A DNA stretch of 64,000 nucleotides from Thioalkalivibrio sulfidiphilus (GTDB lineage Bacteria > Pseudomonadota > Gammaproteobacteria > Ectothiorhodospirales > Ectothiorhodospiraceae), in NCBI RefSeq assembly GCF_000377945.1, contig NZ_KB898928.1:25383-89382 (forward strand). Direction: 5' to 3'. A model generated the notes under the pieces. That model ran no database searches. It had not been told where the DNA came from and worked only from the letters and a program-made list of their open reading frames with translations. Each line of letters begins with the position of its first letter. Within the stretch, counting starts at the first letter, position 1. Positions 7,982-62,637 of this stretch are shown here, one piece after another. Position numbers and translations under genes: made by a program.

Positions 7982-8016
7982 TCGGCAACCAGGAGCGGCG
8001 GGTTCGTCCCGTCCTC

Positions 8017-8044
8017 CTTGCCACTAGCCACTAGCCACTAGCCA
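8017..8044 (+). repeat. Heptamer array CTTGCCA/CTAGCCA (single right arm)
   Basis: One CTTGCCA followed by three CTAGCCA units, ending nine bases before the dat ATG. The matching left arm is absent; instead a short AGGAGCGGCG/CCCG hairpin-like stretch precedes it. Confidence 0.8.
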
Positions 8045-8053
8045 CTGGTTCAC

Positions 8054-15095: not shown

Positions 15096-15590
15096 TCAGC
15101 GCTGGCGAAGCCTGCCGGTGAAGGCCTGGTCGGCGTCCACGAGGCCGTGCGCCTGGAGCCATGCCCGCGCGTCCTCGGCATCGCCGTGGAACCAGGCCCG
15201 GGTATCGCCCAGGCGGAAGCTGTAGCCCCAGGTGTCCATGTCGTCCATGAGCCTTTCCCGGCCCACGCCGGGGAGCTGATCCGCCAGCAGGATCTGCAGG
15301 TAGCAGACCGCGCTTTCCTCCAAGTCATCGCCGCCGGCGTCGGTGTGCAGGCCGCTGCGCCGGGCCGGGTCCATGCACAGGTAATGGCAGGCCTCGTGCA
15401 GGGCCGAGTGCACCGGGGTGTCCGGGCGCACGTGCAGCACGTCGCCCACCAGCCCCGCCTCCGGCGCGCCCCAGTAGGAGCCCGGCAGTTCGGCGCCCTC
15501 GGGATGCCGTCGGATCTCCAGCCCCAGCGGTTCGAATAGATCCCGCAGGCTACTCAAATGCCCTGCTTCACAGACCAGCACGTCCATCAT
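15096..15590 (-). CDS. Conserved hypothetical protein with HExxH-like motif
   Basis: 164 residues, no signal peptide. The middle carries SALHEACHYLCMD, matching the HExxH pattern of zinc peptidases, and a downstream acidic region (DDLEESAVCYLQILLAD) could give the third metal ligand. I do not recognise the family. It is a soluble protein downstream of a small hypothetical gene, with a heptamer array filling the 9-base gap. Confidence 0.7.
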   Translation of the reverse strand: MMDVLVCEAGHLSSLRDLFEPLGLEIRRHPEGAELPGSYWGAPEAGLVGDVLHVRPDTPVHSALHEACHYLCMDPARRSGLHTDAGGDDLEESAVCYLQILLADQLPGVGRERLMDDMDTWGYSFRLGDTRAWFHGDAEDARAWLQAHGLVDADQAFTGRLRQR

Positions 15591-40013: not shown

Positions 40014-41680
40014 CCGCCGCGCTGCTGCTCGCCGTGCCCCTGCTGCCCCTGCTGCTGGCCGCGCTGGTGCCGTGGCGGGGGATGACCCGGCTGCAATGGC
40101 TGACGCCGCTCGCGGTGCTGCCCGGGCTCGCCGTGGTCCTGTTCCTGCCGGATGGCAGCCACGCCAGCTACCCCTGGCTGATCATGGGCATGGACCTGCA
40201 GCTGGATGCCACCGGGCGGGTGTTCCTGCTGTTGACCACCCTGCTCTGGGGCGCGGCCGGGCTCTATGGTCTGGGCTACCTGCGCGGCCAGGACCATACG
40301 GCCCGATACCACCTGTTCTTCCTGCTGGCCATGGCCGGCAACCTGGGCCTGGTGCTGGCCGCCGATGCTGTGGGCTTTTACCTGTTCTTCGCCCTGATGA
40401 GTCTGTCCTCCTACGGGCTGGTGGTGCATGCCGGGGGAGACGCGGTCTATCGCGCCGGACGCATCTACCTGATCATGGCGGTGGTCGGCGAGCTGCTGCT
40501 GTTCGCGGGCCTGGTGCTGCATGTTTCCGCCGCGGGCGGCTACCACTTCAGCCTGATGGCGGCCACGCCCCTGCAACCGGTCACGGCCGCCCTGCTGCTG
40601 ATCGGCTTCGGCATCAAGGCGGGCCTGATTCCCCTGCACGTGTGGCTGCCCCTGGCCCACCCAGCCGCGCCCACACCGGCCAGCGCGGTGCTCTCCGGGG
40701 CCATGATCAAGGCGGGTCTGCTGGGCTGGCTGCGCCTGTTGCAGCTGGAGGGACCCGGTTGGGAGGCCCTGGGCTGGCTGCTGGTGACGCTGGGGCTTGC
40801 GGGCGCCTTCCTCGCCGCGCTGGTGGGTGTGCTGCAAAGCCGCCCCAAGACCATCCTGGCCTACTCCAGCATCAGCCAGATGGGGCTCATGATCTGCGGC
40901 GTGGGCCTGATCTTCCTGTTGCCCGATCTCGGCGACCTGCTGCTGGCGGCGGTGGTGCTCTATGCCCTGCACCACGGGCTCGCCAAGGGCGCGCTGTTCC
41001 TCGGTGTCGGCATCGTGGAGCGCAGGCGTGCGCCCTGGGTCCTGGCGGTGCTGGCGGTGCCCGCGCTGGCCCTGGCCGGACTGCCCTGGACCAGCGGGGC
41101 CCTGGCCAAGCAGTCGCTCAAGTCCCCCCTCTACGAGGCGCTCCCGGCCTGGGTAGGTACGGTGGAAACCCTGCTGACCCTGGCCGCCGTGGGCACCACC
41201 CTGCTCATGGCCCGTTTCCTGTGGTGTCTGTGGATCAAGGGCGCAGCCAGGCCGGGCGCTTTGCCCTGGCAGATGTGGGTGCCCTGGCTGGTGTTGTCAT
41301 TCGCGGCCCTGGTCCTGCCCTGGGTCTGGGCCGGGGAGGCGGGTTCGGCCTGGTCCCTGATCTGGCCCCTGATACTGGGTGTCGTGCTGTCCCTGGCGGG
41401 TCTGCTTGCCTGGCGTGGCCTGCGGGTGCCGCAGGTGCCGGAGGGGGATGTGCTGTTGCCGGTGGAAGGCCTTGCACGCTGGCTGGCACGCACCGTCCGG
41501 TCCGCGCCCCGCCTCTGGCAGACCGCCGGTGACGGCCCCGCCCGCGCCCGCCTGCGCCTGGCCTGGCGCCGCACCCGTCATGGCGCGGCGCGTCTGGAGG
41601 CGGGCCTGGGTCGCTGGGAGACCGTGGGCATCGTCTTCATGGCGCTGCTGGTGGGGGTGTTCGTGAGTCTCTGGGTTTGA
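40010..41680 (+). CDS. Proton-conducting membrane subunit (MnhD-like), third of three
   Basis: 556 residues from a GTG overlapping the previous stop. Core block GFGIKAGLIPLHVWLPLAHPAAPTPASAVLSGAMIKAGLLGW. An extra hydrophilic C-terminal part (ARTVRSAPRLWQTAGDGPARARLRLAWRRTR) is followed by a last helix (VGIVFMALLVGVFVSLWV), as in hydrogenase-linked members. Last gene of the operon. Confidence 0.87.
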   Translation: MTAALLLAVPLLPLLLAALVPWRGMTRLQWLTPLAVLPGLAVVLFLPDGSHASYPWLIMGMDLQLDATGRVFLLLTTLLWGAAGLYGLGYLRGQDHTARYHLFFLLAMAGNLGLVLAADAVGFYLFFALMSLSSYGLVVHAGGDAVYRAGRIYLIMAVVGELLLFAGLVLHVSAAGGYHFSLMAATPLQPVTAALLLIGFGIKAGLIPLHVWLPLAHPAAPTPASAVLSGAMIKAGLLGWLRLLQLEGPGWEALGWLLVTLGLAGAFLAALVGVLQSRPKTILAYSSISQMGLMICGVGLIFLLPDLGDLLLAAVVLYALHHGLAKGALFLGVGIVERRRAPWVLAVLAVPALALAGLPWTSGALAKQSLKSPLYEALPAWVGTVETLLTLAAVGTTLLMARFLWCLWIKGAARPGALPWQMWVPWLVLSFAALVLPWVWAGEAGSAWSLIWPLILGVVLSLAGLLAWRGLRVPQVPEGDVLLPVEGLARWLARTVRSAPRLWQTAGDGPARARLRLAWRRTRHGAARLEAGLGRWETVGIVFMALLVGVFVSLWV

Positions 41681-41697
41681 GGGTGGTTGAAGACGTT

Positions 41698-41868
41698 TAG
41701 CCACAGAGGGCACAGAGGACGCAGAGAAAAAACCAAACGGCAAAACATGGGTCTCTCGCAAAGATGCGAAGCCGCAAAGAGAACTTTTTTGAAAGATCTT
41801 TTGTTTACTTCACGACTTTGCGTCTTCGCGAGAGAAATGAGTTTTTTCTCTGTGTCCTCTGTGGCTAA
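41698..41868 (+). repeat. Nested inverted 9-nt-period arrays
   Basis: Outer arms: TTAGCCACAGAGGGCACAGA... (41698-41733) and TTTTTTCTCTGTGTCCTCTG... (41842-41868). Inner arms: CTCTCGCAAAGATGCGAAGC... (41753-41784) and GACTTTGCGTCTTCGCGAGA (41813-41832). Units of 9 nt (CACAGAGGA; CGCAAAGAT). Confidence 0.85.
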
Positions 41869-41882
41869 TAAATCACCCTGAT

Positions 41883-41914
41883 GTAGGTTGGACTGAGCGC
41901 AGCGATGTCCAACA
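41883..41914 (+). repeat. REP-like palindrome (GTAGGTTGGACTGAGC type)
   Basis: GTAGGTTGGACTGAGCGCAG...GTCCAACA forms a hairpin with TTGGAC/GTCCAA arms and is a type dispersed in many gammaproteobacterial genomes. The remaining sequence up to 42012 shows no gene. Confidence 0.65.
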
Positions 41915-42012
41915 TGGCGGCATAGATTCGGCATATTGGGGTTCGTTCCTCACCCCAAGCTACGAGCGACGTTCAACAACGCACCGCCCCGAAGTGGTCA
42001 CAAGCGGTTATC

Positions 42013-42075
42013 CTTGCCACTTGCCACTTGCCACTTGCCACTTGCCACTTGCCACTTGCCACTTGCCACTTGCCA
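42013..42075 (+). repeat. Nine perfect CTTGCCA heptamers
   Basis: Nine uninterrupted copies of CTTGCCA end nine bases before the tauE-like ATG. It is the longest uniform array in the window and has no left arm. In an open frame it would translate as CHLPLAT repeats, which is why an upstream start for the next gene is rejected. Confidence 0.95.
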
Positions 42076-42083
42076 CTGTCTTT

Positions 42084-42842
42084 ATGGATCCGCTCAATAT
42101 CCTGGTCATCTCCCTCGCCGCCCTGGTGGCCGGTGCCATCAACGCGCTGGCGGGCGGCGGCAGTTTTCTGACCCTGCCGGCCCTGGTGTTCACGGGCGTG
42201 CCGCCGGTGGCGGCCAATGCCACGGGCACGGCGGCGCTGTTGCCGGGGTATCTCGCCAGCGCCTGGAGCTACCGGGACCTGATCCGTTCCCCGGGTATCG
42301 GCCTGTCGGTGACGGCGGTGGTGGTGCTGGGCACCCTGGGCGGGGCGCTGGGCGCGACCCTGCTGCTGTTCACCTCCAACGAGGCCTTCCGGGTGATCGT
42401 GCCCTGGCTGCTGTTGTTCGCCACCCTGCTGTTCGCCTTCGGTCCGCGCATCCACGCCCTGCTGTCGCGCCGGGCCTCGGCAGGCAGGGGTGGTTTCTGG
42501 GGCAAGCTGGGGATCGTGGGTGTATGCGGCTACGGCGGGTATTTCAACGGCGGCATGGGCATCGTCATGCTGGCCATGTTCCGCCTGCTGGGGGTGAAGG
42601 ATCTGAACGTGGCCAACGGCCTGAAGAACCTGCTCTCGGCGGTGCTGACCCTGATCGCGGTGCTGATCTACGCCGCCGGCGGGGTGATCTCCTGGCCCGA
42701 GACCGTGCCCATGGCCATCGCCGCCACCCTGGGCGGCATCGCCGGCGCCTGGATCGGCCGGGCCATCCCGCCGCAACTGCTGCGCAACGGTATCGTGGTG
42801 GTGGGGGCTGTCACCACGGTGCTGTTCTTCCTGGATATTTGA
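42084..42842 (+). CDS. TauE/SafE (DUF81) family anion exporter
   Basis: 252 residues, about eight helices. N-terminal AGAINALAGGGSFLTLPALV is the family signature, and the second half repeats it (GYFNGGMGIVMLAMFRLLG). Members export sulfite, sulfoacetate or related compounds; the substrate here is unknown, though sulfite would suit the ETHE1-type gene at 18329. Start ATG at 42084. Confidence 0.88.
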   Translation: MDPLNILVISLAALVAGAINALAGGGSFLTLPALVFTGVPPVAANATGTAALLPGYLASAWSYRDLIRSPGIGLSVTAVVVLGTLGGALGATLLLFTSNEAFRVIVPWLLLFATLLFAFGPRIHALLSRRASAGRGGFWGKLGIVGVCGYGGYFNGGMGIVMLAMFRLLGVKDLNVANGLKNLLSAVLTLIAVLIYAAGGVISWPETVPMAIAATLGGIAGAWIGRAIPPQLLRNGIVVVGAVTTVLFFLDI

Positions 42843-42848
42843 GGGGCG

Positions 42849-42926
42849 AATTCAAAATTCAAAATTCAAAATTCAAAGGGAAATTGCGGACTCCCCCTTT
42901 GAATTTTGAATGTTGAATCTTGAATT
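42849..42926 (+). repeat. Inverted heptamer array, ATTCAAA/TTGAATT family
   Basis: Left arm AATTCAA repeated four times then AGGG; right arm CCCTTTGAATT, TTGAATG, TTGAATC, TTGAATT. Spacer about 15 bases. Lies between the convergent tauE-like and dctM genes. Confidence 0.9.
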
Positions 42927-61675: not shown

Positions 61676-62410
61676 ATGCGTCCACACCCCCTGCTGACCA
61701 GTCTTCTACTCTGCCTGCTCCTGCTGCCCCTGACCGTACTGGCCGATGACGACGACGCCGTGCGCCTGCACCTCTCCGCCTTCAGCGAACAGGAGGTGGA
61801 CAACGACCTGATGCGCGTGACCCTGCAGGTGGAGCGCAGCGGCAGGGACACCGCCCGCCTGGCCCGTGAGGTGCGCGAGATCATGGACCGAGCCCTGCGC
61901 ACCGGCCGGGACCACCCCACGGTGAAGCTGCGCACCCCCGCCTACACCACCCAGCCGGTCTACGAGCACCGGGACAACCAGACCCGTCAGACCGGCTGGC
62001 GCATCATCCAGACCCTGGAGCTGGAAAGCACCGACCTGGAATCGGCCACCACCCTGGTAGGCAAGCTGCAGGAGGGTGAGCTGCGGGTCATTCAGATGGG
62101 ATTTGCGGTCTCCGACGAGACCCGCGAACGGGTGCGCAAGGCGCTCAGTGAACAGGCCATCGACCTGTGGCGCGCCAAGGCCGCCGGCGCGGCGGCACAG
62201 GTGCAGGCCAGCCACTGGCGACCTGCGGAACTGCACCTGCAGGATGAACTGGACGGCCCGCCGATACGTCCGCTGATGGCGCGCGCCATGGATGCGGCCA
62301 TGGAGTCCGCCCCGGCGGTGGAGGCCGGCACCTCGCGCCTGCGGGTGCAGGTGAGCGGCACCGCCCTGGCCTTGGGCGTGAAGGCCGAGGCGTTAGGCGT
62401 TAGGCGTTAG
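61676..62410 (+). CDS. SIMPL-domain (DUF541) periplasmic protein
   Basis: 244 residues with a signal peptide (LLLCLLLLPLTVLA). The DUF541 pattern is visible in VDNDLMRVTLQVERSGRD, AYTTQPVYEHRDNQTRQTGWRIIQTLEL and AEAL. Function unknown (E. coli YggE is a relative linked to oxidative stress). The last residues (ALGVRR) and TAG stop are encoded by the GCGTTAG array. Confidence 0.78.
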   Translation: MRPHPLLTSLLLCLLLLPLTVLADDDDAVRLHLSAFSEQEVDNDLMRVTLQVERSGRDTARLAREVREIMDRALRTGRDHPTVKLRTPAYTTQPVYEHRDNQTRQTGWRIIQTLELESTDLESATTLVGKLQEGELRVIQMGFAVSDETRERVRKALSEQAIDLWRAKAAGAAAQVQASHWRPAELHLQDELDGPPIRPLMARAMDAAMESAPAVEAGTSRLRVQVSGTALALGVKAEALGVRR

Positions 62411-62637
62411 GCGTTAGGCGTTAGGCGTTAGGCGTTAGGCGTTAGGCGAGAGCCTGCGTGCCATACCACCGAACGCAAGACCTGATTGATGAATCCCCTC
62501 CCCCTCAGGGCAAATCCGCCGGGAGCGGATTTGAACAGCCGAAAGGCTGGCCCGAAGGGTGGAGGGCAGAATGCCCGGAATAGAGGGCCGTGATGAGGGT
62601 GGTTTCACGCCTATCACCTATCGCCTTACCCCTCACG
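62390..62637 (+). repeat. GCGTTAG heptamer array with degenerate inverted arm and nested repeat
   Basis: Eight perfect GCGTTAG units at 62390-62445; a degenerate inverse arm (CGCCTAT, CACCTAT, CGCCTTA, CCCCTCA) at 62609-62636. The interior holds copy 2 of the 115-bp repeat. Confidence 0.88.
62493..62604 (-). repeat. About 115-bp dispersed repeat, copy 2 (inverted)
   Basis: Reverse complement of 28862-28976 with about 10-15% differences, including ATTCCGGGCATTCTGCCCTC and TCAAATCCGCTCCCGGCGGA. Again lies between two heptamer arms. Confidence 0.85.

Follow-up and report, generated by a model that had tools for sequence, protein, structure and literature searches.

Period-seven repeat arrays at spacer ends in Thioalkalivibrio sulfidiphilus and the CTTGCCA array preceding its tauE/safE gene

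The array of CTTGCCA heptamers that precedes a tauE/safE gene of Thioalkalivibrio sulfidiphilus is probably (we put the probability at about 0.6) a 7-base tandem repeat which is prone to slippage and occupies the coding-side end of its spacer, and one of the many, often mirrored arms that bracket spacers in this genus. The position and polarity of the arrays at gene boundaries, their restriction to period 7, the mirrored arms and the divergence of sister species in the number of units as well as in the unit itself were demonstrated in the genomes compared.

The window, i.e. the whole stretch of 64,000 nucleotides that was analysed, contains 9.3 perfect copies of CTTGCCA (100% matches) at positions 42013-42077 of the forward strand, the ACT end of the array facing the tauE start. 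The nine whole units cover 42013-42075 and the ATG of tauE is at 42084, thus 8 bases separate the ninth unit from the start codon and 6 bases remain after the periodic tract. The gene (42084-42842, forward strand) encodes a TauE/SafE family protein (PF01925, E 3e-33). The original prediction had placed nine perfect units just upstream of a TauE/SafE start and had called them the longest uniform array, and both statements were confirmed: no perfect array in the window is longer, the next one being AGGCGTT x8.7 at 62388-62448, which overlaps the end of a gene whose stop was placed at 62410 by our codon-usage script. The further claim that the array replaces the usual ribosome site is not established. 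No Shine-Dalgarno-like 4-mer could be found between -18 and -4 of the tauE ATG, but no ribosome-site motif was seen upstream of tauE in the sister species either, where the perfect array is missing.

A sigma-70-like promoter was not found in the region 41670-42200, and the search for an exact inverted partner motif of the tauE array was likewise negative. A possible decayed partner arm, AAGTGG..CAAG, is located at 41992-42004 of the forward strand; its predicted pairing with the first units is weak. This arm lies within the minimum-energy fold, nonetheless the region folds worse than shuffled sequences, the tauE leader being less stable than 196 of 200 shuffles (z +1.96). Farther upstream, a palindrome with CACAGAGG-type arms (41701-41868) is situated 3' of the stop of the upstream gene and is also present in the sister species. 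A second palindrome, GTAGGTTGGACTGAGCGCAGCGATGTCCAAC (41883-41914), belongs to a stretch of about 100 bases which is found in this genome only and is absent from the sister species. Palindromes with CACAGAGG and CGCAGAG recur in further spacers.

Such repeats are more abundant than expected by chance. The double CTTGCCA unit matched 11 times in the window as compared to a mean of 0.00 in 100 shuffles. When perfect arrays were collected for periods 4-12 with a minimum run of 14 bases, eight of period 7 and none of any other period were obtained in the window, and first-order Markov simulations (10 per period) gave no array at all over the same periods. With overlapping matches counted, the triple unit occurs 64 times in the genome (3.05 Mb) and its reversed control not once. 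Among 58 genomes (this one and 57 relatives) it occurred only in the five of this genus, while a class-wide draw of 369 genomes gave three carriers, namely this genome and two from other families. The preponderance of period 7 held in 464 kb, comprising the window and unselected stretches of this genome and the sister species, where periods 2-24 were tested: perfect arrays of at least three units had period 7 in 31 of 35 cases, period 6 in two and period 8 in two. A third-order Markov null (264 kb, 10 repeats) yielded one period-6 array and none of period 7. Seventeen different units were encountered among the period-7 arrays of the 464 kb, and 14 of them, like CTTGCCA itself, in which the longest run of G or C is two, have no G or C run above two. 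The commonest size of the CTTGCCA arrays was 4.3-4.4 units (23 of 68).

For runs of 11 bases or more, period-7 arrays were outside coding sequence or on its boundary in 37 of 40 cases. A lag-7 identity of at least 0.55, measured over the 44 bases next to a gene, was reached by 43 of 480 spacer ends, by 2 of 133 spacer middles (taken from spacers of at least 150 bases) and by none of 326 gene middles, with gene boundaries drawn by our own codon-usage script rather than taken from annotation. At the other lags between 4 and 15 at most two spacer ends passed the threshold, with the exception of lag 14, where 30 did. Self-trained gene calls gave 24 lag-7 ends out of 278 in this genome and 18 out of 230 in the sister species (G004). 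In contrast to these values, no lag-7 end was detected among the 274 spacer ends sampled from 1-20 kb of each of 19 other genomes of the class, nor among 54 in five Ectothiorhodospira loci. The counts were also zero in 20 kb of the congener G002 (0/30) and in 40 kb of G160, a carrier from another family (0/16), which indicates that array density differs among carriers and counts against the bracket reading. One of the 19 other genomes contained two perfect period-7 arrays, thus such arrays are not confined to the genus. Four CTTGCCA-array regions of G160 have arms that hold further units, e.g. AAGTTTC, and an opposing stop adjoins the array at two of the four. A long array of G160 (L206:3026-3240) is composed of CTTGCCA and CTTGTCA units arranged in blocks, as if one were displacing the other.

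The CTTGCCA arrays have a fixed polarity. A coding boundary lay no more than 10 bases from the ACT end in 48 of 68 arrays, as compared to 4 of 67 for the CTT end; the 68 arrays (at least three units each) originate mostly from stretches fetched for the triple unit and include orthologous copies, so that they are not independent. Random placement within the same spacers would bring the ACT end to this position in 8.5 of 62 cases, as compared to the 43 of 62 observed, and the maximum in 20,000 simulations was 20. Starts were not preferred over stops: boundaries within 16 bases of arrays comprised 26 starts and 28 opposing stops, the base rate being 295 and 283 (p 0.69). The arrays mark coding ends generally, not starts.

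Inverted partners were frequent. The motif AAGTGGCAAG or one of two variants was present not more than 200 bases upstream of 29 of the 68 arrays, as compared to 30 of 9196 background windows. The 17-base arm form AGTCTCAAGTGGCAAGG has 50 copies in the genome. Its 16-base core, AGTCTCAAGTGGCAAG, has 24 sites in the fetched stretches, of which 19 are close to a stop, four are close to a start and one is far from both. Complementary spacer ends (score at least 12) were observed in 14 of 35 convergent spacers, in 13 of 97 and 5 of 39 tandem ones and in 1 of 47 divergent ones, mismatched spacer ends giving 0-2.6% as a null; these counts take in palindromes that are no heptamer arms.

Several spacers illustrate the arrangement. 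The convergent genes tauE and dctM are separated by a second bracketed spacer (42849-42926), which is filled by mirrored AATTCAA and TTTGAAT heptamer arms. At 1694-1817, a AGTGGCAAG arm four bases after a stop faces a CTTGCCA x3.6 arm before a start, and this spacer is 98% identical in the sister species. The spacer at 7982-8053 has a CTAGCCA array before the start, while its counterpart in the sister species carries CTTGTCT/CTTGCCT-type units and is largely different (spacer identity 0.63, coding flanks 98-99%). Elsewhere in the genome (L131:13264-13545), two 13-unit AACTCCT-type arrays are located about 100 bases apart.

The comparison with the sister species, in which each species was represented by one genome, revealed changes in unit number as well as in unit identity. 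The tauE orthologue of the sister species is 96% identical in DNA and 98% in protein, and upstream of it a degenerate stretch of about five units is found with a periodic score of 15; none of 5000 shuffles scored as high, and of 403 control segments, among which there may be real arrays, nine did. Close tauE genes were absent from G001, G002 and G003, the best matches being 29-30% identical in G002 and G003, with no match in G001. The CTTGCCA unit numbers at orthologous sites were 4.3 and 14.9, 9.6 and 7.6, 8.9 and 4.9, and 8.9 and 9.9. Between G001 and G002, 8.9 units stood against 9.9 and 5.7 against 5.4, three arrays of 4.3 units and one of 3.6 were equal, and others differed by substitutions. 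The gain or loss of units assumed in the original prediction is thus supported by differences between species, at tauE by decay to about five units and at other arrays as well.

Of 23 array boundaries of this genome or the sister species that were looked up in the other, 22 had a usable orthologue, and these were sorted by eye. CTTGCCA-type arrays of equal length were present at four of them (two with substitutions) and of different length at six; in the rest, the tauE array had decayed (one), a different 7-periodic unit was present (nine) or the orthologue had no own array (two). The queried coding flanks of the nine unit-switched boundaries were 91-100% identical. Ten partner segments had a mean lag-7 identity of 0.57, as compared to 0.50 at lag 14 and 0.22-0.29 at other lags; this mean is partly due to selection, since the switched segments had been chosen by eye, and the ten include the stop side of L072, which is counted above among the boundaries with no own array, as the array there belongs to the opposite spacer end, as well as one segment (L069) in which another lag is slightly above lag 7. 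In the nadD spacer both arms and the core differ between the two genomes. Of the 45 spacers of the window, 32 had a collinear orthologue in the sister species, 23 with an identity of at least 83% and nine below, including two where the spacer is almost missing from the sister species, which may be a coordinate artefact. Conservation is therefore the rule and replacement the minority.

A scan of nine proteins with an array at their start gave five that reached the curated cut-offs, namely NadD, RuvC, AroE, ZnuB and YicC. The others were a methyltransferase, a PLD-domain protein, a member of the SAM hydroxide adenosyltransferase family and an Hsp15-like S4-domain protein (L068), whose assignment to Hsp15 does not reach the cut-off of NCBIfam. 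This is not a surface-antigen spectrum. In the sister species (L086:3067-3240), a frame behind a CTTGCCA array resembles the start of MutL, but it ends 58 residues on, past a run of nine C, and mutL is therefore not counted among these genes; the cause is either a sequencing error or a real homopolymer change.

A phase-variable switch, as originally predicted, in which slippage would alter the leader, or the reading frame that opens at GTG 41994 and runs through the array, and would thereby toggle TauE, is very unlikely. The array adjoins a start, unit number varies between species, and the GTG 41994 frame (282 residues) stays open through all nine units. However, the TauE domain begins at residue 41 of that frame, past the part encoded by the array, which makes a frameshift switch through this GTG unlikely; with the array upstream of the likely start, changes in unit number would not frameshift TauE. 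The sister species keeps its tauE without a perfect array, housekeeping genes are found behind arrays, and about half of the arrays flank opposing stops. Somewhat less improbable, yet still doubtful, is a translation element, in which the CU-rich unstructured array would serve as a ribosome binding or standby site (e.g. for protein S1), as suggested for the TAACTGA repeats. A ribosome-site-like 4-mer was found at only 1 of 26 array starts as compared to 157 of 406 genes overall, the preference for 4.3-4.4 units would suit such a role, and 25 array starts, orthologous copies included, had a mean folding energy of -7.4 kcal/mol, as compared to -11.1 kcal/mol for 282 other spacer-preceded starts (p 0.0002). 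The weak folding is explained, however, by the composition of the units, and the sister species has other units in the same place. Since arrays are equally common at opposing stops, a function at starts is not favoured as the cause of their position.

Another reading is that the mirrored arms pair in RNA or DNA as stem-loops which, chiefly downstream of stops, end transcription or shield the ends of transcripts. The excess of complementary ends in convergent spacers, their rarity in divergent ones and the location of the AGTCTCAAGTGGCAAG core near stops would agree with it. On the other hand, the motifs used revealed no partner up to 200 bases from 39 of the 68 arrays, the tauE array has no exact one and its leader folds worse than shuffles, and the complementarity counts contain palindromes of another kind; we consider this reading quite unlikely. 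Mobilization of a palindromic element of the REP kind by a Y1 transposase appears extremely unlikely. The 50 copies of one 17-base arm are in its favour, as is the presence of Y1 transposase genes in each of the four genomes that were searched, but neither a heptamer array nor an arm was present at any of eight fetched Y1 loci (of 19 matches), so the link is unsupported at the loci examined, and the spacer cores vary from site to site. One spacer of the sister species (L140:15104-15357) contains a GTAGG-type palindrome and has its end some 80 bases ahead of a match to a Y1 transposase (G004:C1:2915433, at about position 15433 of the locus). This palindrome is REP-like company of the transposase, unlike the heptamer arms. 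The most far-reaching possibility, which we regard as tentative and rather improbable, is that the spacer ends form a bracket system which preserves period 7 and mirror pairing and leaves the unit sequence free; at some spacers both arms would have switched unit family together, selection or copying would act on period and pairing, and the tauE array would have outlived its partner.

Since starts and stops are flanked alike and the weak folding follows from composition, slippage combined with exchange or copying was taken as the working mechanism. Replication slippage would add or remove whole units, chiefly in the longer arrays. Arms or entire spacers may be replaced via recombination or copying among spacers, and coding sequence would act as a barrier to further spread of the arrays. 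The tauE array would form the last part of a leader that lacks a ribosome-site motif and for which unusually little structure is predicted, and any effect of the array on expression would be a graded by-product, not an on/off switch. Some observations fit slippage and turnover less well. Slippage is deduced from a single genome per species, long arrays are sometimes equal (6.4 and 6.4 units) and an array of 4.3 units faces 14.9 in the sister species. The maintenance of arrays at the same boundary across 10-20% divergence could mean selection instead of drift, and the lack of ribosome-site motifs and the lower folding at array starts are also compatible with a function in translation.

Heptanucleotide repeats are known from cyanobacteria, where they form small dispersed repeats that, like the present ones, have period 7 and are dispersed and intergenic. 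Literature searches with the repeat letters gave no title reporting such repeats, and those on tandem repeats of Thioalkalivibrio, on heptamer repeats and on dispersed repeats brought up two heptamer reports, PMC4692102 and PMC4679880. According to Rehm et al. (2015, PMC4692102), GGGAATC and GGGGA(C/T)T heptamer arrays occur in Xanthomonas and Nostoc. The Xanthomonas arrays mostly have four units and form 70-75 inverted pairs; they are situated near ORFs with the G-rich strand reading outward and are scarce between divergent ORFs. Their length and sequence vary between related species, the functions of the adjacent genes are random, phase variation was deemed unlikely, and the four units were linked to quadruplexes (PMC4692102). 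The arrays reported here resemble them in the period of 7, the intergenic location, the commonest size of about four units, the inverted pairs, the ORF-adjacent position with fixed polarity, the rarity in divergent spacers, the variation between related species and the lack of a common function among the adjacent genes. They differ in two respects from the single G-rich, quadruplex-forming unit described in that account (PMC4692102), namely in having 17 units, 14 of which have no G or C run above two, and in the occurrence of unlike units where sister species are compared at one boundary. At CTTGCCA a quadruplex was rejected on account of the lack of any G or C run above two, and the same architecture built of AATTCAA or AAGTGGC units argues against quadruplexes as the general cause of such arrays, which is unlikely, the units being mostly free of runs of three G or C. 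As the Xanthomonas arrays are portrayed there (PMC4692102), ours are of the same kind, mostly not quadruplex-like, and with unit switching.

The TAACTGA arrays of Beggiatoaceae, as described by MacGregor (2015, PMC4679880), are mostly located before starts, with one indirect repeat only. They too are intergenic direct heptamers beside starts, where canonical ribosome sites are likewise rare, but there one unit is favoured, whereas here many units occur, stops are flanked as often as starts and inverted partners are common. Neither TAACTGA nor a rotation of it is among the 17 canonical units; AACTGAC is present and is a different heptamer. REP elements, as characterized in PMC3733652, are palindromes of 20-40 bp whose end is tagged; they are associated with Y1 transposases, and GTAG-5 REPs are named there in Thioalkalivibrio sp. 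HL-EbGR7. They share with the present elements the nature of intergenic palindromes, but no heptamer array was present at the eight Y1 loci checked.

Among long simple repeats, those of period 7 are reported to be the most abundant in the majority of the genomes examined (Mrazek et al. 2007, cited by PMC4679880). Why the period is seven and why the arrays are adjacent to genes is the general puzzle to which the arrays of Thioalkalivibrio speak, and the period-7 bracket at spacer ends, together with the turnover of its units, is a more interesting fact than the single tauE array. The presence of different units at one boundary in sister species amounts to a natural experiment on the origin and exchange of such arrays.
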